Shown here: positions 39,912 through 62,780 of the stretch, piece by piece
How positions within the stretch are numbered: position 1 is the stretch's first letter
How the letters are laid out: each line of letters opens with the position of its first letter
Source: Prorocentrum cordatum
Lineage: Eukaryota; Sar; Dinophyceae; Prorocentrales; Prorocentraceae
NCBI GenBank assembly: GCA_963575745.1
Contig: CAUYUJ010003027.1
Coordinates: forward strand, 1 to 64,000
Direction of reading: 5' to 3'
DNA length: 64,000 nucleotides
Program-made: the position numbers and the translations under genes
Notes under the pieces: model-generated
Databases searched by the model: none
The model's input: only the letters and a program-made list of their open reading frames with translations
Told to the model about the DNA's origin: nothing

Positions 39912-40411
39912 TTTTTTGCGGCTTTGCGAGGCTCCTACTGGCCCTAGGGCCACGAGCAAGCATGAGGTCAGGTGTCATCAGGAAGCGAAAGCTCTTATTC
40001 GAACCTAAAGTCAAGACAACCCAGAGCAGCGGAGCTGCGATGAATCATCAATCACAAATATGAGCGAACGAGCAAACGCACACAGAAATGAATCAAAGTG
40101 CAGTCAAGTAAACATGCAAGAGAAAAGAGAAGTCCCAGCGAAGCTGAGTATATCATAGTATGAGGAAGAACAATGAAATAAGAAAAACTGCAACTATCAA
40201 GTCTGTGATAACCATAGAACTGCCTGTGGGAGCGCAGTCACGATGCACTCCAAAGCACTGAGTTCTGTATCAGTAACAGTTGTGGTCGGAGAAATAAGCC
40301 AAGCCCTCTCAAAAACTGACTTCCATATCAGCTGAGCGGGGTCCCGTCGATCCCAATACCGAGGTTTGAGGCCTATGTCTATCCAGCAACCGCACCCACA
40401 TCCCTCAGACG
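39912..40411 (-). mobile_element. 5'-truncated LINE with RNase H remnant
   Basis: AACCTTTCTT is duplicated at 39902-39911 and 40412-40421. The 3' structure is GCTC/GAGC outer (39931-39934, 39954-39957) and TGGCC/GGCCA inner with a CTAG loop. The minus strand at about 40215-40405 encodes the last part of a LINE-A-like ORF2, including VGAVAGWIDIG and TVTDTELSALE, so the piece ends within the RNase H domain. 500 bp in all; clearly a truncated insertion. Confidence 0.75.
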
Positions 40412-40432
40412 AACCTTTCTTACCGCCGGGGG

Positions 40433-41595
40433 ACTCGTAGAGCTTCCTGACAATATATAATGTCGAAAAAAAAAATTGCAGAGAACGTATTGTTTTTCAG
40501 CCCAAGCGATTTGAGACCTCTCGATGCAACAGCCGAACGCCCCCGATGCTTCTGGATTGTCTTCTGTACGAGCTCTAGCTCTCCTACAGCCCGAGTTACG
40601 TGCGTAAATCGACCGCACCTCCCAAGATGACTCGAACAATAAGAATAGTTGGCAAACCTAGCTCGAGTATCAGACCGAGTTGAGACCTCTGAATGCGACA
40701 GACTGACGCGTCTGATGTCTCCGAATCGGTTTCTGTGATTACCAGCCCTGCAGTACAGCCTCAGTTAAGTGCAGAAAACCGACAGCACCTCTCAGGATGA
40801 CTCGAACAATACGAATAGTTTCGTGGACCTAGTTCGGGCAGCAGACCGAGTTCTGAGCTCTGGATTCGACAGGCGGACGCCCCTCATGTCTTGAAATCGA
40901 TTCTGTGACTATCAGCACTGCAGCCCCCATACAGCCCGAGTTAAGTACAGAAAACGGACAGCACCTCTCAAGATGACTCGAACAATACAATAGTTTCGCG
41001 ATTCTAGATCGGGCAGCAGACAGAGTTCAGAGCTCTGGATTCAACAGACACGCGACTGATGATTCTGAATCGGTTTCTCGAAGTATCAGCTCTGTAGCTG
41101 TCATATAGCTCGAGTTAAGTACAGAAAACCGAGAGCGCCTGTCAAGATAACTCGAAAAATACAAACCGGTTTGCGGACCTAGCTCAGCTAGCAGACCGAA
41201 TTCAGACCTCTGGATGAAACAGACGAGCGCGCTTCATCATCATGAATCGAAAAGGTGTGATTACCAGCTCTGTAGCTGTCCTCTATCTCGAGTTAAGTAC
41301 AAAATACCGACAACGCGTATGAAGATGACTCGAAACGGCCGATCCCGCCAGTGTGCTTTTTGGCAGTAAAAGGTACCCGATCGAGCTGAGATCAAGATGG
41401 CAAGCGGAAATAAGATCTAATATCACGGAAAAAATACCAGAGCTCAAACGAATTGAGAAATTTCGAGAACAAAGTGTTCAACCGACCAAAAGTCACCAAA
41501 AGGTCCGTCGAGATTTTCTTGCCAACTAGCTCTCCAGCGCGCCGGAATTACTCTTAAGCTTCCAGCAATAACTTGCACAGAGAAGCTCTACGAGT
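40433..41595 (+). mobile_element. Module S element with 14-bp perfect inverted ends
   Basis: ACTCGTAGAGCTTC (40433-40446) is the exact inverse of GAAGCTCTACGAGT (41582-41595). Inside are the head (GACAATATATAATGTCG), about five satellite units (anchors near 40595, 40755, 40938, 41115, 41290), the tail (41330-41530) and CTTAAGCTTCCAGCAATAACTT. This 1,163-bp copy shows that the satellite array is carried inside a bounded element. Confidence 0.75.
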
Positions 41596-49084: not shown

Positions 49085-50040
49085 ACCGCCGGGGGACTCG
49101 TAGAGCTTCCTGACAGTATATAGTGTGGAAAAAACTCCAAAGAACGACTCGTTTTTCAGCCCAAGCGATTTCAAACCTCTCAAGATGACTCTAACCAAAA
49201 AAACAAACAGTTTTCGCAACCCAGTTCGAGTATCGAATAGAGTTCAGACCTCTGAATGCGACGGGCGGGCGCGTCTGCTGTCTGCGAACCCACTCATGTG
49301 ATTCCCAGCCCTGCAGCCCCCCTATAGCCCGAGGTAAGTGCAGAAAACCGACAGTATCGACTCGAATGATACAATAGCTTTGCGGGCCTAGTTCGAGCAG
49401 CAGACCGAGTTCCGAGCTCTGGAATCGACCAACAGACGCGCCTGATGCGTGCAAATCGATATCTGTGACCCGCAGCACTGTAGCTCTCCCCCAGCACGAG
49501 TTGAGTGCAGAGAATTGAGAGCACTTCTCAAGATGATTCGAACAATACGAATAGTTTCGCGAACCTAGCTCGGGCAGCAGGCCGAGTTCAGAGCTCTCGG
49601 TTCAATAGACGAACGCGACTGATGATTCCCCATCGATGTCTGTGACAATGAGCCCTGTAGCTGCCTCATAGTTCGAGTTGAGTAGAGAAAACCGACAGCA
49701 CCTGTCAAGATGACTCTAATAATACGAATAGGTTTGCGACCCTAGCTCGGCTAGCAGACCGAGTTCAGACCTCTGGATTCAACAGGCGAACGCGCCTGAT
49801 AATTCTGAATGCGATAGGTGTGCTTACCAGCTCTGTAGCTGCCCTACAGCTCGAGTTAAGTACAAAATACCGACAACGCGTATCAAGATGACTCGAAACG
49901 GCCGATCCCGCCAGTGTGCTTTTTGGCAGTAAAAGGTACCCGATCGAGCTGAGATCAAGATGGCGAGCGGGAATAAGATCGAATATCACGGGAAAAAATA
50001 CTAGAGCTCGAACGAATTGTTGAATTTCGAGAACAAAACT
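49085..50040 (+). repeat. S satellite array with tail cut by H/LINE-A
   Basis: Head GACAGTATATAGTGTGG after H right arm and ACTCGTAGAGCTTCC. About five units follow, then the S tail (49890-50038), which ends at GAGAACAAAACT where the H hairpin of the LINE-A site begins. No gene. Confidence 0.75.
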
Positions 50041-50264: not shown

Positions 50265-53200
50265 TCACATCATATCCTGTCCGAAATACGCTTGTACAAC
50301 CCGCGGCAAGATCATAATCGTATGCTCAACGGCCGAGACCTCGGCATCAGTCACTGTTGAAGTTGGATCAATCGAGAACGCCGCACTGTACACCTCCGTC
50401 CAAATGATCTCATGGCTGAGTGGCTGCCTTGAGAGTCTCGATACCCTTCCAACATCTATCCAGCACCCGACTCCCACGCCGTCGCAAGAGACACCGCCAT
50501 CGAATCCAGCTCTGATGGCACAAACGCGAAACACCTGTTGTAACTGAGGGGCGTGAAGCCCTATCCTATCTCGAATCACTGGTGGCCCGAAGCGGGCCGT
50601 ATGAGTGAGTACATCTGCACGTGTGTTCCATTCCCTATATGTGTGGTCAATAATTTCCCTCCCGTGGCAGGCGGGCCTAATTCCATATCTTTGACACATG
50701 TTGTCGAGTTGGTTTATCATTCTGTTGATCCTATCTTGATACGTACGATTAAGCACCCTCCAGACACCCTGCAGCCAAGACACCACCAGGAGACTGTCCC
50801 CAGAGATATACACAGGGATCCCAAATGAGTCGAGGTCGTACTCAACCTCCTTCATATTTTGTAACGCAATACGTTTGGCCAGTTTGTCGTTGAAAGCCGC
50901 AGTGCCCTCTTGGGCCCCATAGGTGTGTAGGTCGTTTTGTGTGATAGTAAGTACCTCCTGCGGGGCCCCACCTGTTGTACCGTACCCTTTTCTTTTCTGA
51001 AAGTAACTCAGCATCGTCCGTGTACACATGTGCTCGCAGAACTGAACATACGCAGCATCTGTCGGCACAAAGGACTCCCACCATTTGAGTCCGTAGAATT
51101 CGCAGAAAGAAAATAGCCAGCATCTCTGGCCGACAGCTCGACCTGAACTCACATGTCTCCTTTTTAGCTGCGAGGCCTCTTGGAAGTGAAACATACCTCG
51201 CAAGCACTCAGACGCATCCGTCCTGAGTCTGTCCCACAATGGGCCATACGCAACCGTAGTCATGTGATGATCTCTCCACGTACGTTGCGTCGAAGATATA
51301 TCCTCATGAGAAGCAGCACACATCATAGAAATGAAATCTGCAGCATCCTTCGCGGAGTTCCACACCATACGAAGAAATCTCTGCACCAAACTCGCAAATC
51401 CATAAGATCGGAATTGCTCTCTGGCCTCGTGGTACCGTCGTCGGTTCCAGTCCGCCATAGTCTCCTCCTCTCTCCTCGGCCGTCGAAACATACGGCACAA
51501 ACACCATCCCTCGAAGGCATTGAGCATGTGTAGCGAGGAAGCATCCGCAGTACATGTCTCTAGACAATACAACGCCATACTCTGCACCTTGTCTTGATAA
51601 CGGCAAAACTTATCACGAACAGCAACCGCTCTGTTACGAAAGAAATTCGATTGTCTAATGAGACAAGCTCGAGCCTCCTTGATGCGATATTCAACATCAG
51701 GATGAGCAGGCACTAGGTATGTGGAGAAAATCTCATGACCCAATACTTTCATACTACCAACACGTCGAAGTCTAAAGCCCTGATATCTCGAGCACGCAGG
51801 TATACACAAGTCCTCGCTGGTAAGTATATGTCCGTCAACGTCCACTTTAGCATTCTCCCCACATGTCATGTACAACAGGCTGCTATCCTTCCATCTCATC
51901 CCCCAGTCATGTAGTGGTAGTGTTAGATCGTGCATCATCTGAGCCAACATAGTTGAGGAGGCAGAGACAAGGTAGCAGTTGTCCGCCCACACAAAGTGGT
52001 TCACCGTTGTCCGTCGCTCATACTCACCACAGACGCCCTCCAGCACATACCCCACACCTCTACTGTCCCAATCCCGAAATATAGGTCCCCACATGGCACA
52101 TATGATAAGATTAAATAGAAGAGGCCCCTCAGGGCCGCCCGTCCGTATGCATACGTCCCAGTTGATGTCGTGAATGGCCATACCCTCGACAACTAACGAC
52201 CCCGTAGTGCAAACCAGCGGTGATAGCAAAGCATACTGGAGATAGGCAGGAATATTGGCATGGCACATAGCACGTTTGGCGTTTAGAAGGCTGCAGTGGT
52301 CGAACGCTTGTTTGATATCGGCGTTAGCGATATGGACCGTCTGATCTTTTCCCCAGATGTCCCCGTGTTGAGCCAGAGCCTTGAGGGCCCCCACAATTTC
52401 CACCGTCTTACGTCCCTCCTGGAAGCCGTAGATGCCCAGGGGTCCCATGAGGCCAGCCCGAGACACAAATTGTTCGACCAAGATCACCACGCAAGCAGAG
52501 TACCAACGGCTGAGACTGTTTTGCAGACAGAGGTACCGCGCATCTGTCAGCGATGTCAAGCTCGGCAGCTTGGGCATGAAGGCAATCAAAATCTGCCTCC
52601 AATCCTGCGGATACTGCCGTGCCAAGCGAAATATCTCATCAAACATCCGAGCAACGCCGCGCAAAGTCGCCCACGGCAATGCCTTGAGGATTTCACAAGG
52701 CAGCCTGTCGGGGCCGGTGGCACGCTTGGACTTGAGACGTGACCGTGCCTGGCATACCACCGCTATTGTCAGTCCCTCAGTGCAGTACCCGTCACATAGG
52801 TTCTGTTGTGCATCCCTCCTCAACTCCTCCAACATCGACATATCCCGTCCTCTGACCTCCTCCGAAGTATACTTCTGTCTGGTATGTGCTCTGATCTCCT
52901 CCACCCACTCCTCCCTGTCCTCAGATATCCGTCCCTGCACAATGAGGTGCTTGATACCATGACGCTCTTTGCGCCTGGAGGCAGGAGAGGTCCACGCGGC
53001 CAACGCCGCACGATACTCCCTCCGCAGTCCGTTGGCACGTCTGCGCAAGCTGGGCACATCCACTGACGCTGGCAGAGGCTTCCGTCGCAAAATCTCCTGG
53101 CAGGCCGTGAGTCCTGCAGGCCTAATTGGCGGTAGTCCCCGTCCCGTGGTGGCAGTCGTGAATTTGATATCCTCCTGCTCAGTACAGGCCCGAATAGTGG

Positions 53201-54128
53201 TCGACACAAGGTCCCCTGGAGAACAAATAGTATTGGCATCTCCCAAGACCCGATCGATTTCCTTTCGCGCCATATTGAGGTCCCCCCAATTCACCGTCTT
53301 ATAACCAACCAAACTCTTTTCACGAGCTGCCGTCGGGATACTACGTTTGACCAGCTCAGCGCCTGTGTCACTAAAAGTCCCCTGAAGCAGGCCATGGTCG
53401 CTGAGACGACTACGATTTGTCTTCCCCCCATTACTCATGATCGTTTCAACCTTCATCTCATCGATCACCCACGTCCTGGGAACAAAAATGTAATCAAGAA
53501 CCTTCTTACACGTCCCCCACCGAGATACTCCGTAGCTCTCCCATGTGTGTAGTCGTCGTGGCAAGAACGAATTGGCAGCCTTCATCCCCAGGCGCCCTAG
53601 AAAGCAAAGAACACGCTCGCGCAACTGTTGTCGTACGTCCCTCCTCACCCGCTGTGCACCACCCTCCTCACAAGTCCTCCTCTCCTCCTTGGTAGCACTT
53701 CCCACCGCCTCATAGACAGTCCCAGTGCGTGAGCACTGCAGCTGAGTTGATGGGGATAGCTCAACGTTGGCATCGAGCAGCACAGAGACAGTCGCCCCCT
53801 TCCAGCGGCTGCGCAGAGTGAGAATAACTGATTCGAGCGCGTCCAACACCACGCACTGCACATCTACGGCGTTCTCGACGCCGGGGTCGGGAAGATACGC
53901 AGAGGCAACTATCACAGGGGCACTTCCACTACCAAAGACCACCACACAGAACCGTTCATATTGACATATTGATTCACGCACACACGTACTCCACTCTTTG
54001 TTAAATAATAACCCACACTTACCGTCACAACTCACACGATATGATAGACCACACCGTCTGATATATGCATCGAATTTGCCTCCAAAAAGATTCTGGCATT
54101 CCTGGACACCCCAGATGCAATCTCGCAT
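50265..54128 (-). CDS. LINE-A ORF2: endonuclease, reverse transcriptase, RNase H
   Basis: 1,287 codons from the first ATG, but homology (GSWNLNRAGSANFKG) runs in frame upstream to the ORF1 stop at 54237, so this ATG is probably not the true start. AP-type endonuclease: GVQE (residues 7-10), SAYLP, LLDAN (D119, N121), DYIF (D212), SDH (243-245). Reverse transcriptase: TGPDRLPCEILK (471-482), YGFQEGRK, motif A NADIKQAFD (D604), motif B TGGPEGPLLFN, motif C FVWADN (D716, N717 in place of the second Asp). C-terminal RNase H-like residues come in permuted order: GDS D1111, TRAD D1172, FDGG D1210, DAE E1263. No zinc knuckle is recognised. The frame is intact. Confidence 0.85.
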   Translation of the reverse strand: MRDCIWGVQECQNLFGGKFDAYIRRCGLSYRVSCDGKCGLLFNKEWSTCVRESICQYERFCVVVFGSGSAPVIVASAYLPDPGVENAVDVQCVVLDALESVILTLRSRWKGATVSVLLDANVELSPSTQLQCSRTGTVYEAVGSATKEERRTCEEGGAQRVRRDVRQQLRERVLCFLGRLGMKAANSFLPRRLHTWESYGVSRWGTCKKVLDYIFVPRTWVIDEMKVETIMSNGGKTNRSRLSDHGLLQGTFSDTGAELVKRSIPTAAREKSLVGYKTVNWGDLNMARKEIDRVLGDANTICSPGDLVSTTIRACTEQEDIKFTTATTGRGLPPIRPAGLTACQEILRRKPLPASVDVPSLRRRANGLRREYRAALAAWTSPASRRKERHGIKHLIVQGRISEDREEWVEEIRAHTRQKYTSEEVRGRDMSMLEELRRDAQQNLCDGYCTEGLTIAVVCQARSRLKSKRATGPDRLPCEILKALPWATLRGVARMFDEIFRLARQYPQDWRQILIAFMPKLPSLTSLTDARYLCLQNSLSRWYSACVVILVEQFVSRAGLMGPLGIYGFQEGRKTVEIVGALKALAQHGDIWGKDQTVHIANADIKQAFDHCSLLNAKRAMCHANIPAYLQYALLSPLVCTTGSLVVEGMAIHDINWDVCIRTGGPEGPLLFNLIICAMWGPIFRDWDSRGVGYVLEGVCGEYERRTTVNHFVWADNCYLVSASSTMLAQMMHDLTLPLHDWGMRWKDSSLLYMTCGENAKVDVDGHILTSEDLCIPACSRYQGFRLRRVGSMKVLGHEIFSTYLVPAHPDVEYRIKEARACLIRQSNFFRNRAVAVRDKFCRYQDKVQSMALYCLETCTADASSLHMLNAFEGWCLCRMFRRPRREEETMADWNRRRYHEAREQFRSYGFASLVQRFLRMVWNSAKDAADFISMMCAASHEDISSTQRTWRDHHMTTVAYGPLWDRLRTDASECLRGMFHFQEASQLKRRHVSSGRAVGQRCWLFSFCEFYGLKWWESFVPTDAAYVQFCEHMCTRTMLSYFQKRKGYGTTGGAPQEVLTITQNDLHTYGAQEGTAAFNDKLAKRIALQNMKEVEYDLDSFGIPVYISGDSLLVVSWLQGVWRVLNRTYQDRINRMINQLDNMCQRYGIRPACHGREIIDHTYREWNTRADVLTHTARFGPPVIRDRIGLHAPQLQQVFRVCAIRAGFDGGVSCDGVGVGCWIDVGRVSRLSRQPLSHEIIWTEVYSAAFSIDPTSTVTDAEVSAVEHTIMILPRVVQAYFGQDMM

Positions 54129-54229
54129 TGAAAGGCACCTCAGAATCTCATTCCCCTTGAAATTGGCCGACCCCGCCCGATTGAGGTTCCAGCTACCCAG
54201 TCGGATCCCCTTGAACGGTGTTCGGCGTC

Positions 54230-54245
54230 GTCGTCGTCACACCCT
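54230..54245 (-). promoter_or_regulatory. In-frame ORF1/ORF2 stop, candidate readthrough site
   Basis: On the minus strand the ORF1 end reads GTG-TGA-CGA-CGA and translation beyond the TGA is open into the endonuclease. LINE-B has GTG-TGA-CGA-CGT at its own junction (61228-61239). A 10-base identity at the only interruption of both polyproteins suggests functional conservation. UGA followed by C is a leaky context in several eukaryotes; readthrough itself is inferred. Confidence 0.55.
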
Positions 54246-55691
54246 CCTGTTGACTTCCGTCTCGATATCAGCCTTCGTCTTAGTAAATGCAGGTATGAGT
54301 TGATGCAACCTGTCGACAGTCTCACTCGATACCTCCCATGTCGCCCGCGTCGTGGTAAACTCGGCCAGAAGCATCGGCCTCGGAGAGGCCGTCGTGGGCA
54401 CTGTCCATATAGTCGATTTGGGCGGTCCCATTTCCCCACGCACAGCAATAACCTCGATACCAATCTGTGTACACATGCTCCGAATAGTGCCGCAGAATCT
54501 CCCCACCGCCTTCACGTGGTCCCTCTTCCACTCTGGGCATTCGACACTGACTTTGATCGACTCAGGGTTGATAACCTGCTTCATATTCTCAATGAGGCAC
54601 TGTGGTGCAGCGATCTGGATTCCTGGAGGAGGCGCGGGGCGTTTAGCAGGGGGTACCGTCACAAGGTCGATGCACCGTTTGACCCTCCAAATAATATCCC
54701 TGTCGGTCCCTGGCTTGAATTTGATTTTGGCCGATCCGAACATGTAACGGCCAGCGTTAATGCGCTCAGTACCGTCAACACACACGTGCACACGATCATC
54801 CTCCGAAAGACAATGATTTGTAATGTTATCTATGAGCACCTTCACATCCTCCCACATGAGCATTTCCTGAGACCTCCTATCCCTGTCACTCCAGTTGGTG
54901 ACCCATCCCTTGAGTTCAACATACGTTGGAGAGAAGTAGGTGGTTCCAGGAGCCTGGTATCTTCCCGTCCTGGTATTGTCGGGCCTCGTCGAAGCGTCAC
55001 TGGCAACTGAACCCGCACGAACCTGTCCCTGGAGCCCCTGGACGATCGTCTCGAGTCGATTATGTTTAGTCTCAAGCCCTTGAACGCTCGTCTCCAAATT
55101 AGAAATCGTTACACCCTGCTTCTGGACCTGGGCCTGAACGTCGTCGATTTTGGTCCCCTGAACTCCTATGGCATCCTGGATCCTTTCAGTGTTATCATCC
55201 ATCTTGTGCATCATCTGCAATAGTAAACTCTGCATACCATCCTTCCCCTCCAAGGCGGCCTTCCTTTCAGCAAGAACCTCCTCACGACTACGCTTCACAG
55301 GGGGGGCTCCGCCATCCACCGTCATGTTATCTGCATGCTCGGGCATTGTGTCGATACACTGAGGTCCGTATCCCCACGAGTGCAACCACTGTCGTGTCAC
55401 CGTCCGTTCACTGAGAGGTACAGCAGACTCACTATCTGGAGTAGAATCGGCAGTATTCAATCTTCCGTCCAATGGGTAGTCACCTGGGGTCTTCTCAATA
55501 TCCTGAAGTTGTCTTTTACGAGAAGCTCGCTCGACAGCAGTATCTGGCTTTTGACCGTAATCCTGTGAGTACTGCAAATATGGCACTGTCGGTGATATAT
55601 CCTCCAGCTGAAACCTTCTCGCGAGAACCGAAAAGTCGTATCCGTCCGTCGTCACGCACGTACAACAAAAGATAACAAGCGCAGCAAACAA
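54237..55691 (-). CDS. LINE-A ORF1: coiled-coil RNA-binding-like protein
   Basis: 484 codons counted from a TTG. The frame is open further upstream through the leader relic with no ATG, and the first ATG is at 55346 (residue 116), so the start is uncertain. Features: a short hydrophobic stretch near the counted N-terminus, a KRSREEVLAERK basic-acidic segment, a long coiled coil (about residues 146-228, with MHKMDDNTERIQDAI and VQAQVQKQG), then a region (YVELKGW ... KIKFKPGTDRDIIWRVKR) that aligns by eye with LINE-B ORF1 (YLTLSGW ... RLRIFFVHGTSKETVWKVRE) and may be RRM-like. It ends EVNRRV, TGA, then continues in the same frame into ORF2. Confidence 0.7.
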   Translation of the reverse strand: MFAALVIFCCTCVTTDGYDFSVLARRFQLEDISPTVPYLQYSQDYGQKPDTAVERASRKRQLQDIEKTPGDYPLDGRLNTADSTPDSESAVPLSERTVTRQWLHSWGYGPQCIDTMPEHADNMTVDGGAPPVKRSREEVLAERKAALEGKDGMQSLLLQMMHKMDDNTERIQDAIGVQGTKIDDVQAQVQKQGVTISNLETSVQGLETKHNRLETIVQGLQGQVRAGSVASDASTRPDNTRTGRYQAPGTTYFSPTYVELKGWVTNWSDRDRRSQEMLMWEDVKVLIDNITNHCLSEDDRVHVCVDGTERINAGRYMFGSAKIKFKPGTDRDIIWRVKRCIDLVTVPPAKRPAPPPGIQIAAPQCLIENMKQVINPESIKVSVECPEWKRDHVKAVGRFCGTIRSMCTQIGIEVIAVRGEMGPPKSTIWTVPTTASPRPMLLAEFTTTRATWEVSSETVDRLHQLIPAFTKTKADIETEVNRRV

Positions 55692-55805
55692 AGAAAGCAG
55701 CCTAGCTGACCTCGAAGATGCCGTACCCGTCGATGGCAGCGATGGCTGCCGCGCCGTCTCCCCGCGACGCCGACACCCCCTGAGCCCCAGTGGGATCCTG
55801 GAGCC

Positions 55806-55828
55806 CTGGAGCCGAGATGTCTTGAGCC
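55806..55828 (-). other. Spliced-leader-like relic at LINE-A 5' end
   Basis: The reverse complement is GGCTCAAG followed by ACATCTCGGCTCCAG: the two leader ends are 15 nt apart, as in the other tandem relics, with drift in the second. More GGCTCCAG/GGGCTCAG words follow downstream (about 55790-55805), perhaps older relics. Confidence 0.6.
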
Positions 55829-55833
55829 GGGGG

Positions 55834-56816
55834 ACTCGTAGAGCTTCCTAGCTCGACTTCAGTTGAGACAACCGAGAGCACCTATCAACATTCCGACTCA
55901 TAGTGAATATTTTTTGACCTCTGAATGCGACAGGCGGACGCGTCTGATGTCTGCGAATCGACCCCTCATCTACAGCCCGAGTTAAATGCGGAAAACCGAC
56001 AGCACCTCTCAGGATGACTCGAATAATACAATAATTATGCGGACCTAGTTCGGGCAGCAGATCGAGTTCCGAGCTCTGGATTCGACAGGCGGACACGCCT
56101 GATCGCTTCAAATCGATTCCTGTGACAACAAGCACTGTAGCCCCCCTCAGCGCGAGTTAAGTGAAGAAGACCGATAGCACTTCTCAAGATGACTCGACCA
56201 ATACGAATAATTTTGTGATTCTAGATCGGGCAGCAAATCGAGTTCAGAGCTCTGGATTCGACAGACAAACGCAACTGATGATTCTGAATCAGTTCCTGTA
56301 AATATCACTCTGTAGCTGTCCTACAGCTCGAGTTAAGTACAGAACACCGAGAGCGCCTGTCAAGATGACTCGAATAATACGAATAGGTTTGCGCGCCTAG
56401 CTCGGCTAACAGACCGAGTTCAGGCCTCTGGATTCGACAGGCGAACGCGCCTTTTCATTCTACATCGATTAGCTGTGCCTACCAGCTCTGTAGCTGTTCT
56501 ACAGCTCGAGTTATGTTCGGAAAACCGTCAGCGTGCATCAAGATGACTCGAAACGCCCGATCCCGCCACAGTGCTTTTCGATAGTAATATTCACCCGATC
56601 GAGCTGAGATCAAGATGGCGAGCGGGAATAAGATCGAATATCACGGGAAAAAATACTAGAGCCCTAACGAATTGTCAAATTTCGAGAACAAGATTTTCAA
56701 CCGATCAAAAGTTGTCACAAGTTCAGTTGAGATTCTTCGAGCCAACTAGCTCTCCAGCGCGCCGGAATTACTCTTAGCTTCCAGCAAAATAACTTGCTAA
56801 GGGAAGCTCTACGAGT
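55834..56816 (+). mobile_element. Module S element with 15-bp perfect inverted ends
   Basis: ACTCGTAGAGCTTCC (55834-55848) is the exact inverse of GGAAGCTCTACGAGT (56802-56816). The 983-bp interior has about four satellite units and the S tail (56540-56760). LINE-A's 5' end abuts its left end. Non-coding. Confidence 0.75.
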
Positions 56817-56917
56817 TATTTTCAACCGACCAAAAGTTGTGAAAAGTTCAGTTCTTTTTTTTTCGAGCCAACTAGCTCTCCAGCGCTCCGGAATTACTTG
56901 GCGCCGGCGATAAATCG
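56817..56917 (+). repeat. Partial S tail and H left arm
   Basis: A second partial S end (TTTTCAACCGACCAAAAGTTGTG ... CCAACTAGCTCTCCAGCGC) followed by a mutated H left arm (GCGCCGGCGATAAATCG), the LINE-B target. Confidence 0.6.
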
Positions 56918-56996
56918 TCAACCTTGATTTTTTGCGTATTGCGTGCCGCCACAGCAGGGTCGGGTCACCGCCCAGGCGATAGCCACACAAGGAGGC

Positions 56997-58862
56997 CTAG
57001 TATCCTGCCAAATGCAGGCATTCCTCCACTCCCAAAAGGAGTTGTCGGGCAGACTCTAACTCAGCTGCAGTGATAGTGCTCGAGGGGGGAAGGAGGAAAG
57101 AGGAAGAGGCCACGTTGGGCTCCCACACGCCACTCGGAAGAGTGACAGGATATTCAGCAACAGAAGAGGAGCACAAATGAAAATCAATCTGCCAGCCACA
57201 GCCTACACCCAGATAGGATCTTCCACCATCGAAGCTTCCCCGAATGGCGTCGATCAGAATAGCGTTAGCTTTAACATGGGATAGTAAATCATGCCTAAAA
57301 CGTGTTCTACAAATGCCCTGCCTAGCTCTGTGTGTTAACTCATCCGCAGCAGTGTTGTCCTCTCTGTATACCCACTTGAAGATATGTCTCCCAAGACAGG
57401 CCGCCTGCACACCACATCTCTTAGCTAGAATGTCTAACTTATTCTGAATGCCGCCCACAATCTTGTCATAATGCACATTGGCAGTAAAATACAAGCCTTG
57501 GATCCACCGCACAACGCATTGAGAGTCTCCCTTCAGTTCAATGACAATCCTTCCCACCTGGAACTCCCACTCCGTGTAATCCTCCAATATCTTAGCATAC
57601 CGTTTGGACAACACCTCCTCCTTCTTCCTGCTGAGCTCCTCCGAAAGTACCTCCTCCTCCCTCTCTTCCATAGGCTTCCAAGGAATAGGATCTTTAAGAA
57701 CCAGGAAATCAGAAACACCAGGAACCTGTAGAAGCGTAAAAACTTCACGAGCAAACTTGACCCAGGCCTCCTCTGTCCATTCCAGAACATGGTACCAGTA
57801 CTTCCCTCCCACGAGCTCAAAAGGTGTTCTCCACGGGCGCATGCCGATAGGAGCTCCGCCAGTCCTCACACGAGTCCCAGCACGTCCAGCCTGGCTTCCT
57901 AAAGATAATATCAGATCATCCCGCCTGGATTCCCACTCCCCTCCTCCGTGCAACATGGACAGTCGTGCCTGCAGGTAGCCGTTGACAGCAGTGCCCGTGT
58001 CCACCACCGTGGGCTGATTGTAATAGCGGGTTGGGTCCTCGAACCTGTCTCTGAGTCTCGCCGTGTTCTGAGAAAGTTGGGTCCTCTGACGTTTGGCCTC
58101 ATTCATGCACATCGTTTTTCTTTTCCGTCGGTTCGTGGGCTCGGAGGGCGTCGTATCATCAGCAGGAGCACCAGGAGCATACGAGGGAGGCGGCACCAAT
58201 TGTGAGCCACCCACCACAGAAATCTCCTCCACGCCTCCTCCGTCCCTGCCAAAACAAGACAATGCAATATCCTTCGCCCATTTCCACTGCCGATATAGGA
58301 AGACCTGTGCGAGTGGAGGTCTGCCAGCTTCATAAAAAGCTTGCCTCCCTCTTTTGTACATGCGCGACATGAATACAGCCCACCCCTCCTCCTCCCTCTT
58401 CGCTCTCCACGTCATCCTGCTCAACATCTTCCCCTCCTCCTTGTGTATAAATGCAATCGTAGAACTGTCAACTGTGGCTCCTTCCAAGCCGAAAAGAAAC
58501 TTAGATCTCACTCTAGACTCATATCGTGCAAATTTATTCTTCCAAGCAATCCTCCTGGAGGTGTAAAACGCTCGATCATTCCAGAAAGCACGAATAGCTT
58601 TTGCCATACGGTATCGCACATCATCATGATCCTTGAACTTCCTCGCAATCTTAGTCCCCAGCACAATAATTTCATCCACCTGCGGAATGGTGATATTCTC
58701 GGGGAGAGAGACATTGGGCCCCCTGGACATACCTGGCGGGAACAACGTCACCATGAGAGGCTCCGTCACACCGGTGGTAGTACCCACGTCCATGAACTCA
58801 AGACTGCTCTGCTTCCAACGAAAGCCGTGGTCGTGGAGAGCCCACGTCAACTGTAAAATCAT
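56997..58862 (-). pseudogene. LINE-B ORF2, C-terminal part (RT thumb to RNase H)
   Basis: 621 codons counted from the ATG at 58862. The frame stays open a little upstream (DRPTLAK), joining the end of the RT in the adjacent frame, so a single 1-nt insertion or 2-nt deletion near 58880 separates the two halves. Features: ALHDHGFRWKQ after RT motif C, a connector with KRRKRKTMC-like basic residues, a conserved WYHVLEWTEEAW region, then the RNase H-like segment: GDS D446, TAAD D507, SFDGG D545, TAAEL E601, ending 20 residues later at the stop. The residue order is the same unusual one as in LINE-A. All residues needed for RNase H appear present. Confidence 0.8.
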
Positions 58863-58881
58863 TTTAGCCAGTGTGGGGCGA

Positions 58882-61191
58882 TCAGGAGCCGTGAAGCACG
58901 TTGTCCGCCCATATGAAGTGACTCACAACAATACCTCCTGCTTCACCCGAGTGTACAACACCGACAGCATCTCTCGCCCAAGCAGACGTAATGTCACCAA
59001 ACATGACCAGGGATTGAGCAGTCCACAGGTCAGGTCCTTCCTTGGAACCTGTCTTCACACACGTTGTCCAAGGGAGCGTATCAGTGCAGACACCCTCAAA
59101 ATTGAAGACCGCCCCATTACCAACAGAGTTCTCAATAAGACCATACCGAAGCTCCACATCAACACACAAACGCTCAAGTGTAGAAGAAGCAACTTGGACA
59201 GTGAGAGAGTCAAATGCAGTGGCAACATCCAGGGAAGCAAAAACAATATTCTCCTCCTTCCCCCACAGTCTGGCATGTCTGCACATCGCCTTCAATCCCG
59301 ACGTTACCTCATGTGTCTTACGACCTTGCTGGAAACCATACAAACACAGAGACGGAGCAACAACAGAAGCAATAGACACCAAATGCGAATTGAGTAGAAT
59401 ACACAAGCAGCCCATGTACCATGTGTTAACGACAGAACTCACAGCAAGAGTACGACTGTCATCAAACCTCTTATTCTTGCCGTTCTTCAACATAATGGAT
59501 GCACGGATGAACTTCCAAGACTCAGGTGCCTCTGCCATTCGCCAGAAGCGTCGCTGGAAGCAGTCAAGCACCACACGGAGTGCTTCCCAGGACAAAGAAC
59601 GTAACATGCGTGCACTGATACCGTCAGCACCTACCGCCTTGCCTTCACGAAGCCTGGAACGAGCACGACAGAGAACATGCATGGTAATAGGAGAAGAAGT
59701 GTGAGTGCTGCGCGCACGTGCCTCATCAGCTTGAACCCGAAGCTGCTCCAGAGTCGCCAAATTCATAGCAAGACGTTCCGACTTAGAGTACTTAGCCCTG
59801 ACCACCCTCGTCATATCCTCCTTCCACTTACTGCGGTCTTCACACCATTCCCCGTCGATCATCATAGAGTGAGTAACAGTCTTAGTCTTGACCCCATCCC
59901 GATAACGATAAAGAAGTAGACGTTTCATGAACTGCCTTCGAACACGATTCCAACGACGACGACTATCCTTGAACGTAGCCTCATCGATCTGACCAGATTT
60001 CAAGAGTTTGTGAACTCTGTAGTGGGCCTCTTTCACCTGAGCTTCCTCCTGGGTCAACTTCGGGACGAGTGAAGCCGATTTAAAGCCATAACAGCGTTTG
60101 TCGGCAACAGCCCCCTCCTTCAATCGTGATTCCAGGTCAGCTAGAGAAATGGATCTCCACCTAGTATGCCAGATCACCCTTCCCTCAGACTCCTCCGTGC
60201 AGTACTGATTTTTGCGTTTTTTGTTTTGGCCGCTACCCCCACCAGACTTCCACCCAGCAACCTGTGTAACGGCCATATCAAACTCTCTGCACTGTTTCAC
60301 CTCCTTACCCTCCAGCACAAACCACGAGGCGAACGATCGACTGCCAGTGGCCTTCGTCCTACCAGAGGACTTCCCCCGCAGCAAACATGGGAGATCAAAA
60401 CATATCATCTTGTGGTCACTCCATTCAGTGTCCCGAGAGCCAGGAGGGTGCGCATACATAACGTGCAACTTAGAACACATAACATGAGTCTCCCAAGTCA
60501 CAGGACACGCAACATAGTCGATGACGTGTTTTGTCCTAGCACCTCCACCACACCAGGTAAACTCACGGTCAATGAATGTGTTGATCAGCTTCAGACGTAG
60601 CTGGGCCATACAAACACACCAGGCACGCGCACATGCACCCTGCAACACATTCCTCTGCCTCTCTTCCCTCACAATACGCTCGTTCACACCACCACCAGAG
60701 ATACGAAGTCGATCGATCTCAACATGAGGCTGCACTTCAACATTGGCGTCGGCACAAACAACAACATCATGAATACTGTACTTTTGACGCATGCGCACCA
60801 CAGCACTCGATAATTCAAGAAGAACGTTCTGGTACAGCTGGAACGTGGCCTGGTACCCCTCAGACGTTGTCCCAAAGAACCCTTGCTGAGGAAGATACAC
60901 GCTAGCATAGATGAATGCGCCCACTTCTGGCCCACGGAAGGCACAGACCGCAAATCTTCTACCAGCAGCGTGTCCCAAGAAACAGGAGTTGAGAGTAGAC
61001 GAGAATAGTACACCTGCTTGGCCCTCAATCGAGCCACTGTCAAGCTTCACTTCAGCCGAGCTGCGATAGTGAAAACCAGCCTCATTCAACGTATCACGTC
61101 TGAGAAACTGGCACTCCTGGAGCCCGACAAGTTGCACTCCCAGCTCACGCAAGTAAGGAAGAGCAGATAGGGAAGTAGCATCACTCATCAT
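58882..61191 (-). pseudogene. LINE-B ORF2, N-terminal part (endonuclease and RT palm)
   Basis: 769 codons from ATG; in-frame homology begins upstream (CWNIR) and is open to the ORF1 stop. AP-type endonuclease: GLQECQ, ASVYLP, CADANVE, HVIDYV, WSDHKM. Reverse transcriptase: ADGISARMLRSL, motif with YGFQQGRKTHE, motif A SLDVATAFDSL, motif B KTGSKEGPDLW, motif C HFIWADN (D763, N764). Five codons later the frame hits a stop created by the frameshift. Apart from that indel the domain order matches LINE-A, at clearly diverged sequence. Confidence 0.8.
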
Positions 61192-61225
61192 TCTGATGTT
61201 CCAACAGGCCGCCCTCAGCGGGCGG

Positions 61226-61242
61226 GTACGTCGTCACACGGA
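61226..61242 (-). promoter_or_regulatory. In-frame ORF1/ORF2 stop of LINE-B
   Basis: Minus strand: GTG-TGA-CGA-CGT, then open codons into CWNIR of the endonuclease. It has the same ten-base context as LINE-A although the ORFs around it are strongly diverged. Confidence 0.55.
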
Positions 61243-62550
61243 ATCTCCATTCAGCAGCGTCTGCCAGGGCCCAGGAAGGATCTTGTCATCGAACTCAATC
61301 ACCGATTCAGGCCTCAGAGTCCAACCATGCCTGGGATCCCAGGTTCCCAAACAGATCTGCCCACCGGTTTCAGGATAGCCCCAAGCCCAAGACATCACAG
61401 GAGACCCATACTGAATTTTGACACGATTGTTTTTCTTCAGCGGGTTCCTCACACGAAAGTATGTAGCTGTAAGTTTACTGCCAGCACTCACCTGTCCCTC
61501 ACGCCAAGGCTCACACTGCACACGAATGCCGATGTACGACTGAGTAGCTGCAAGAAGAGAATCATCTTTCCAAAGGGGACCCGTGCGCGAAGAGATAACT
61601 TTCCAGAACTCCTCCCTGACCTTCCAGACAGTCTCCTTACTCGTGCCATGAACGAAGAAAATACGCAGCCTAAAGACACCGAACGGCTTGCCCTGGTACT
61701 CTCTCTTAATGGCCTCACGACCAAAGATCTTCGCATTAACCTCAAACTGCGAGCCAACTTCATCTAAGAGCATCTGGATAACTCTGGTGGCCCTGGCCTC
61801 TGACATGATGTTGCTCGTACGCGCCTGGACATCACGAGGGTCACCCGAAGTCCAGCCCGAGAGCGTCAAGTATCCAGGGACAAACGGGGTTGTGCTCCTG
61901 GGGCCTGCATTGCCTCCAAGACTCACCCGAGTAGATACAGAGGCAGCCTCACTGGCCGCACCATCATTTCCTACCGTCGCTAACTGCTTCTGAACCTGAG
62001 CATTCACCGCCTCCTGCTGCTGCTTCTGTTGCTTCACCTCCTCCCTAAGTTGTTCAAGGTCCGACTTCAAGGGTGCAACCTCCTGCTGGATCTCCTTCCT
62101 CACCTCCTCCTTATGTTCCGTCAGAGTACATTTGAGCATATCTGCCAAGTTCTGAAACTCATTACGCAGTAGACCAATAGTGACAGGTTCTTTGTCATCC
62201 GAAGCGCCCTTACCACCTATCCCAGCACGAGCCATCTTGGAGGACCTGGAAGCATCCCCCACCTCGTTTCTTTCACTGATCTGCTTCATAGAGACATCGG
62301 CACAGGCAGCGGCAGCAGATGCAAAGGATGGAGCATGATGCATCACAAGTTGTGGTGGATGGCCAGCAGAAGATGGGTCTGTCGACATCGTATCTGCGAT
62401 ACGTCCTGCTTTCGAAGCTTCCAACGCCGAGAATAGAGCACGTTCGTCCTGTGTCGTATGCTCAGGGATATCGTCCCAGCCCTCAAAGTCCCAGTCGTCT
62501 TCTGAAATAACAGCCGTGATTACAACACAACAAACACAAAGTGGCCCCAA
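61234..62550 (-). CDS. LINE-B ORF1: coiled-coil RNA-binding-like protein
   Basis: 438 codons counted from a TTG; the first ATG is at 62388 (residue 55), and an in-frame stop lies upstream near 62580 with no ATG between. Features: a Cys/Val hydrophobic start, an acidic EDDWDFEGWDD patch, SFASAAAACADVS, a long coiled coil (about residues 130-200: LKCTLTEHKEEVRKEIQQEV ... AQVQKQLATV), then the region shared with LINE-A ORF1 (YLTLSGW; HGTSKETVWKVRE) and a Trp-rich C-terminus (SWAWGYPETGG). It ends NGDSV, TGA, continuing in frame to ORF2. Probably the nucleic-acid-binding protein of the retrotransposition complex. Confidence 0.7.
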   Translation of the reverse strand: MGPLCVCCVVITAVISEDDWDFEGWDDIPEHTTQDERALFSALEASKAGRIADTMSTDPSSAGHPPQLVMHHAPSFASAAAACADVSMKQISERNEVGDASRSSKMARAGIGGKGASDDKEPVTIGLLRNEFQNLADMLKCTLTEHKEEVRKEIQQEVAPLKSDLEQLREEVKQQKQQQEAVNAQVQKQLATVGNDGAASEAASVSTRVSLGGNAGPRSTTPFVPGYLTLSGWTSGDPRDVQARTSNIMSEARATRVIQMLLDEVGSQFEVNAKIFGREAIKREYQGKPFGVFRLRIFFVHGTSKETVWKVREEFWKVISSRTGPLWKDDSLLAATQSYIGIRVQCEPWREGQVSAGSKLTATYFRVRNPLKKNNRVKIQYGSPVMSWAWGYPETGGQICLGTWDPRHGWTLRPESVIEFDDKILPGPWQTLLNGDSV

Positions 62551-62780
62551 GAGAAAAACTGGAATACAGTGTGCCAGCTAGCCACGGGATATCTGTAATA
62601 GGCCTGCCAACAATACACCAAGCAGAGAAGATGCCAGCCGCAAGCAGAGAAGATGCCAGCCGCCAGGCGCCAGCAGCCGCCGCAATCGCGAGGGTGCCGA
62701 GGCCCGAGTGGAGAGAGATGGACGGGCGCGGCCGAGGGCGGGTGGGGCGCGGCAGGGGGGGGCCACCAAGAGCTTCCTAG

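Follow-up and report, generated by a model that had tools for sequence, protein, structure and literature searches.

A predicted circularly permuted RNase HI domain at the C-terminus of LINE ORF2 proteins from likely dinoflagellate hosts

The window in this study is the whole stretch of 64,000 nucleotides that was analysed (contig CAUYUJ010003027.1, positions 1 to 64,000). It contains two elements resembling long interspersed nuclear elements (LINEs), LINE-A and LINE-B, both on the minus strand and each with two open reading frames (ORF1 and ORF2). The C-terminal domain of ORF2 resembles ribonuclease H (RNase H), and the order of its catalytic motifs along the chain differs from that of ordinary RNase HI. 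The features of these elements are given below, where EN is endonuclease, RT is reverse transcriptase and AP is apurinic/apyrimidinic.

54237..55847, minus strand: LINE-A ORF1; open frame from stop to stop, coiled-coil-like, family not clear
50265..54236, minus strand: LINE-A ORF2; open frame, 1323 amino acids from stop to stop, with EN-like part, RT, post-RT region and RNase H-like C-terminus
53385..54230, minus strand: LINE-A AP-endonuclease-like part; WN, QE, DAN and SDH motifs, similarity to LINE-B
51978..51998, minus strand: LINE-A RT motif C, HFVWADN
50586..50822, minus strand: LINE-A predicted permuted RNase H, first half in the chain (β4-αB-β5-αE; D1147, D1208); from hhalign and NCBIfam NF041175
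50517..50585, minus strand: LINE-A linker joining the RNase H halves
50268..50516, minus strand: LINE-A predicted permuted RNase H, last half in the chain (β1-β2-β3-αA; D1246, E1299), which ends ORF2; from alignment and profile scans, the model being of the LINE-B copy
61234..62577, minus strand: LINE-B ORF1; open frame
58882..61233, minus strand: LINE-B ORF2, first piece; EN-like part and most of RT, up to motif C
58900-58920, minus strand: LINE-B RT motif C
56997..58922, minus strand: LINE-B ORF2, second piece, in another frame; remaining RT, post-RT region and RNase H-like C-terminus
57315..57554, minus strand: LINE-B predicted permuted RNase H, first half in the chain (D466, D527); from NCBIfam NF041175, model strand 11-17 to helix 76-86
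57000..57248, minus strand: LINE-B predicted permuted RNase H, last half in the chain (D565, E621), which ends ORF2; model strands 107-121, 124-137 and 150-163, helix 169-190
40218..40412, minus strand: remnant of a third element with only the last half of the RNase H-like domain; 43% identity to LINE-A

The ORF2 sequences of LINE-A and LINE-B were 27–33% identical across the EN-like part, RT, post-RT region and C-terminus. The RT by which a LINE is recognized was located in ORF2. Pfam RVT_1 was matched above the cut-off by the related proteins P0002 and P0003 (E 5e-8 and 3e-8); LINE-A matched at E 1.9e-6, just below the cut-off, and LINE-B at E 0.0049. The WN, QE, DAN and SDH motifs, which we take to be typical of AP endonuclease, were found in this order in the EN-like parts of both elements (27% identity), and the LINE-A and LINE-B proteins gave no Pfam match to an endonuclease family. 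The two pieces of LINE-B ORF2 (61233-58882 and 58922-56997) are read in different frames, with an overlap at 58882-58922; therefore, this copy is broken. Several short stretches of the window also match the 3' end of the coding sequence of the elements.

Related proteins were collected by two protein searches. The RT region of LINE-A retrieved P0001 (1184 amino acids), P0002 (1286) and P0003 (1306). A six-row alignment retrieved eleven proteins: P0001–P0003, P0004, P0005, the partial P0006–P0008 and the ordinary RT proteins P0009–P0011. A protein search with the C-terminal region of LINE-B gave no match. The counts below refer to the six elements with a complete C-terminus (LINE-A, LINE-B and P0001–P0004), which were 29–51% identical with LINE-A or LINE-B as reference. 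P0004 was trimmed at its 3' end for the comparisons, and its record extends further. P0005 (product of the same locus as P0004, without the GDS half), P0006–P0008 (without the C-terminus) and P0009–P0011 (ADD at the RT site, without GDS or FDGG motifs) were kept outside the counts. The third-element remnant of the window agreed with P0002 in 69 of 70 residues, and P0004 and P0005 carry the name Prorocentrum cordatum. The 69 matching residues and the name of P0004 suggest a dinoflagellate host for LINEs of this kind. The source label of P0006 and P0008 is Pyramimonas sp., which may be genuine or reflect contamination.

The catalytic motifs of LINE-A ORF2 were found in the order GDS (D1147, 50798-50796), NTRAD (D1208, 50615-50613), FDGG (D1246, 50501-50499) and TVTDAE (E1299, 50342-50340). 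The second piece of LINE-B ORF2 had the same order: D466 (57527-57525), D527 (57344-57342), D565 (57230-57228) and E621 (57062-57060). The two RNase H-like stretches were 34% identical. The first-pass annotation had claimed this order in both elements, and its motifs were found on the minus strand as described; its residue numbers were 36 too low in LINE-A and 20 too low in LINE-B. It had also argued that the order was kept in both copies and did not arise by rearrangement of one element. The four further elements agreed, with GDS, NxxAD, FDGG and TxTxxE in this order in 6/6.

The spacing of the motifs was regular among the six elements. The GDS Asp and the AD Asp were 61 residues apart in 6/6, the AD Asp and the FDGG Asp 36–40, and the FDGG Asp and the Glu 51–59; another 20–28 residues followed to the end of the compared segment. 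The linker between the halves varied in sequence. Thirty columns of the domain were invariant in the alignment, and five of them held an acidic residue, namely each of the four expected carboxylates plus the Glu within a Y/F-R-E motif. The four catalytic carboxylates of RNase HI were thus invariant in their motif context, in a permuted order (D-D-D-E), and the standard chain order β1-β2-β3-αA-β4-αB-β5-αE was not followed. Since the order of motifs and of model elements differs from the standard, the domain was classed as a permuted relative and not as an ordinary RNase HI.

The GDS half had the characteristic profile of the second half (β4-αE) of RNase HI. Compared by hhalign with a 15-sequence archaeal-type RNase HI profile, the half in the six-row alignment matched the second half of that profile with a probability of 97.3% (P 2.1e-11). 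NCBIfam NF041175 was matched by four of the six members, best by LINE-B (E 3.1e-6, profile positions 69-135 of 143) and by LINE-A alone at E 0.011, all far below that model's whole-protein cut-off. Pfam RVT_3 was matched by two members in native order (best E 5.8e-4) and by three with the halves swapped (best 3.7e-4); in the Pfam scan of the window proteins, LINE-B gave a half-match at E 0.089. In a profile search of the PDB, the top four chains were RNases H (E 0.0066–0.062), followed by unrelated haemagglutinins at 0.22. By profile comparison, the GDS half is homologous to the second half of archaeal-type RNase HI.

The region before the GDS motif was investigated for a conventional first half. 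The six-row alignment had no invariant Asp or Glu in LINE-A residues 965-1146, the 182 residues before GDS. Seven columns there were acidic in at least five of the six elements, one of them (1002) in 6/6 as a mixture of Asp and Glu, and none of the seven lay within a recognisable RNase H motif. A conventional catalytic first half was therefore not apparent at this place. The best local windows of the first-half profile fell at FDGG and αA, in agreement with the earlier claim that no DGG or AE half precedes GDS. On both results, the reading with a conventional first half in this upstream region was rejected. A plain hidden Markov model of the first half, in a run without power, matched neither the upstream nor the FDGG region, and its sole match was in P0004 at -4.5 bits.

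An invariant K-R-x-A was observed about 25 residues before GDS, at LINE-A ORF2 residues 1121-1124 and in the five relatives. αA would occupy this position in a conventional RNase H. The motif could be a trace of the αA of a first domain copy.

The structure of the LINE-B domain was predicted by AlphaFold2 with six sequences. The best of five models had a predicted local distance difference test score (pLDDT) of 83.8 and a predicted template modelling score (pTM) of 0.84. Its chain order was β4-αB-β5-αE-linker-β1-β2-β3-αA, the same as the first-pass annotation had proposed (β4 to αE, then β1 to β3 and αA). The catalytic residues fell on the expected elements, with D18 directly after β4, D79 in αE, D117 in β1 and E173 in αA. 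In the model, both halves were predicted to fold and pack together. Alternatively, the protein might once have carried two tandem RNase H domains, whose remaining halves share no active site and now serve for scaffolding or as surfaces for binding. The variable sequence of the linker is compatible with this explanation, and permutations usually arise by tandem duplication. However, scaffolds would have no need of four catalytic carboxylates, which are invariant in 6/6, and the single-chain model is compact at the pTM given above. The explanation is therefore considered very unlikely.

The FDGG half was compared with the first half of RNase HI. Only 2 of 300 column shuffles reached its local score, and 2 of 300 its global score; the global alignment paired FDGG with β1 and the Glu with the αA Glu. 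When 144 windows along ORF2 were compared with the first half, the eight best local windows, which overlap, passed through the FDGG or αA stretch (15.4–16.0; median 8.9). With the halves tightly trimmed and swapped, the hhalign score was 71.9, up from 67.1, and the match then extended over αA. A permuted order would also account for the fact that profile searches recover no more than half of an RNase H domain in these elements.

Several results weighed against a permuted RNase HI. Against the archaeal-type profile, the FDGG half alone scored 16.5 at profile positions 4-23, a score reached by 6 of 300 shuffles, which is weak support from sequence; against the combined profile it scored 14.9, with 18 of 300 shuffles as high. 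In global mode, the FDGG window ranked 39th of 144 and a neighbouring in-register window 8th. When the helix before GDS was kept in the swap, the score was 66.8, and 222 of 300 shuffled halves did equally well; with the combined profile, 256 of 300 did. No peak stood at the swap when every rotation was scanned, and the swap did not lengthen the HMMER matches (LINE-B, 27.1 to 26.1 bits). All Pfam and NCBIfam matches with coordinates lay within the GDS half, and the FDGG half is the weakest link. The pLDDT of the five AlphaFold2 models spread from 83.8 to 39.5, and two sequences only gave 34.8. RNase HI was not among the 50 PDB matches listed by Foldseek or by VIA-align 2, and a viral library gave no match at E 0.001. 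Because the statistics of the FDGG half are much weaker, the second half of RNase HI is established by sequence, while the first half (FDGG...E) is only favoured by it.

These results bear on the explanation that only the GDS half is RNase HI and that the FDGG...E half is an unrelated small domain with a chance likeness in its motifs, as the confinement of the database matches to the GDS half and the weak FDGG-half statistics would allow. An RNase HI second half alone would want two further carboxylates. Nothing invariant and acidic lies upstream, whereas FDGG and TxTxxE each hold an invariant one, on the predicted β1 and αA. An unrelated half is thus as improbable as a pair of tandem remnants. 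The halves might also complement each other between two ORF2 proteins, as in a domain swap, for which the linker of 36–40 residues between the AD Asp and the FDGG Asp could reach a neighbour; but the single-chain model is already confident by pTM, and this arrangement seems more doubtful still. A single copy that was rearranged or misassembled, as the frame change in the broken LINE-B could imply, has hardly any probability as the accidental source of the order, because the LINE-A frame is open over its whole length and the order recurs in four elements taken from other records; with 6/6 elements, chance or a single-copy rearrangement as its source was ruled out.

We therefore predict with high confidence that the C-terminal domain in these ORF2 proteins is a circularly permuted RNase HI, with the β4-αE half first and the β1-αA half last. 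The domain would fold as an ordinary RNase H sheet, with the chain opened between αA and β4 and closed by a new linker from αE to β1. It would be tethered to the RT through β4 instead of β1, and the last half would end the protein. Because the RT tether enters at β4, the placement of the domain would differ from that of a conventional RNase H. Conventional LINE RNase H domains are thought to degrade the element RNA of the RNA:cDNA (complementary DNA) hybrid. The permuted domain would probably degrade this RNA likewise during target-primed reverse transcription, which would free the cDNA for second-strand synthesis. Most simply, the arrangement would have arisen when the domain was duplicated in tandem, after which the first copy lost its first half and the second copy its second half. 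A permuted RNase HI is probably present throughout the lineage in likely dinoflagellate LINEs, and it is probably active.

Studies of protein folding and of two-metal catalysis use RNase H as a model enzyme. If the prediction is correct, evolution can re-open the RNase H fold between αA and β4 with the active site retained, and the attachment of RNase H to a LINE polymerase has been altered. The domain would then be a well-known enzyme in a new architecture.

The RT active site of these elements was also unusual. Motif C was WADN and not (F/Y)xDD in all eight distinct proteins that cover it (LINE-A, LINE-B, P0001–P0004, P0006 and P0007), and motif B was G-x-x-E-G-P; the ordinary RT proteins P0009–P0011 had ADD at motif C. 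Usual RTs have (F/Y)xDD in motif C and Q-G in motif B, so that WADN has one of two Asp replaced by Asn. A comparable GDN is present in the polymerases of negative-strand RNA viruses.

ORF1 and ORF2 lie in one frame in both LINE-A and LINE-B. A single UGA separates them (minus strand, 54237-54239 and 61234-61236), and its sequence context, GTGTGACGACG, is common to both elements. In each element, ORF2 has its first Met beyond the WN motif of the EN-like part. The common frame, the single UGA and the late Met suggest stop-codon readthrough. No Pfam match to a methyltransferase was found in the ORF1 frames of LINE-A and LINE-B.

The 27-base sequence CAAGGTTGACGGTTTACCGCCGGCGCC was located after the ORF2 stop of both LINEs. 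It occurred at 28 sites from 12649 to 63988 with at most three mismatches, where none was expected, and 25 of the 28 were on the minus strand. Many of the sites were preceded by sequence resembling the element start and not by coding remnants; short derivatives of the elements may therefore be common. Two remnants (40412-40218 and 49072-48992, minus strand) held only the last ORF2 codons, and AAGCTCTACGAGTCCCCCGGC preceded them at a distance of 13–16 bases (40425-40445 and 49088-49108). The same sequence was found directly before LINE-A ORF1 (55826-55846). The 5' leader appears to have been brought next to the 3' end in these remnants, as happens in copies that were spliced or lost an internal part.

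Taken together, there is about an even chance that a dinoflagellate-type LINE lineage combines three departures: a catalytically complete permuted RNase HI attached via β4, which would be the first natural permutant, a WADN site and UGA readthrough. No natural RNase HI permutant was found in the available parts of the literature on circular permutation with RNase H, the RNase H fold, retrotransposons and LINEs, with most subscription journals outside this coverage. In the available text of PMC5408684, "circularly permuted" refers to a scaffold; in that of PMC8775202 and PMC9033089, "permuted" stands only in a reference title on Penelope-like elements; and the permutants of PMC3578095, as far as its available text goes, are other proteins. 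The accessible portion of a review of dinoflagellate genomics (PMC11453091) contains no occurrence of RNase H.

In the available part of PMC5890265, the Symbiodinium LINEs named SymbioLINE-Dnmt are likewise dinoflagellate LINEs with two ORFs, and their ORF1 carries a methyltransferase, to which the present ORF1 frames gave no Pfam match; the single RNase H mention there concerns DIRS elements. The cpRAS GTPases, according to the available text of PMC2430557, are a natural circular permutation with the motifs kept, but in another fold.

Conventional LINE RNase H domains, including those of plant L1, likewise are RNase H-like domains after the RT in ORF2. They are generally held to have the ordinary order and to be joined to the RT by β1, whereas the present domain is joined by β4 and ends with αA. 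Smyshlyaev et al. (2013) reportedly described archaea-like RNase H in plant L1 elements. Penelope-like elements are also retroelements termed permuted, and Craig et al. (2021) are said to have reported a permuted order of whole domains in them; the permutation described here, in contrast, lies inside one domain. The closest likeness by profile was to archaeal-type RNase HI (NF041175 of Thermoproteota, NF041306 of Halobacteria; Sulfolobus tokodaii ST0753, PDB 2ehg and 3aly; 3u3g), which shares the GDS...NxxAD half and the same four carboxylates. Relative to these enzymes, the present domain has a rotated chain in which the second half leads, a new linker follows and the first half comes last.

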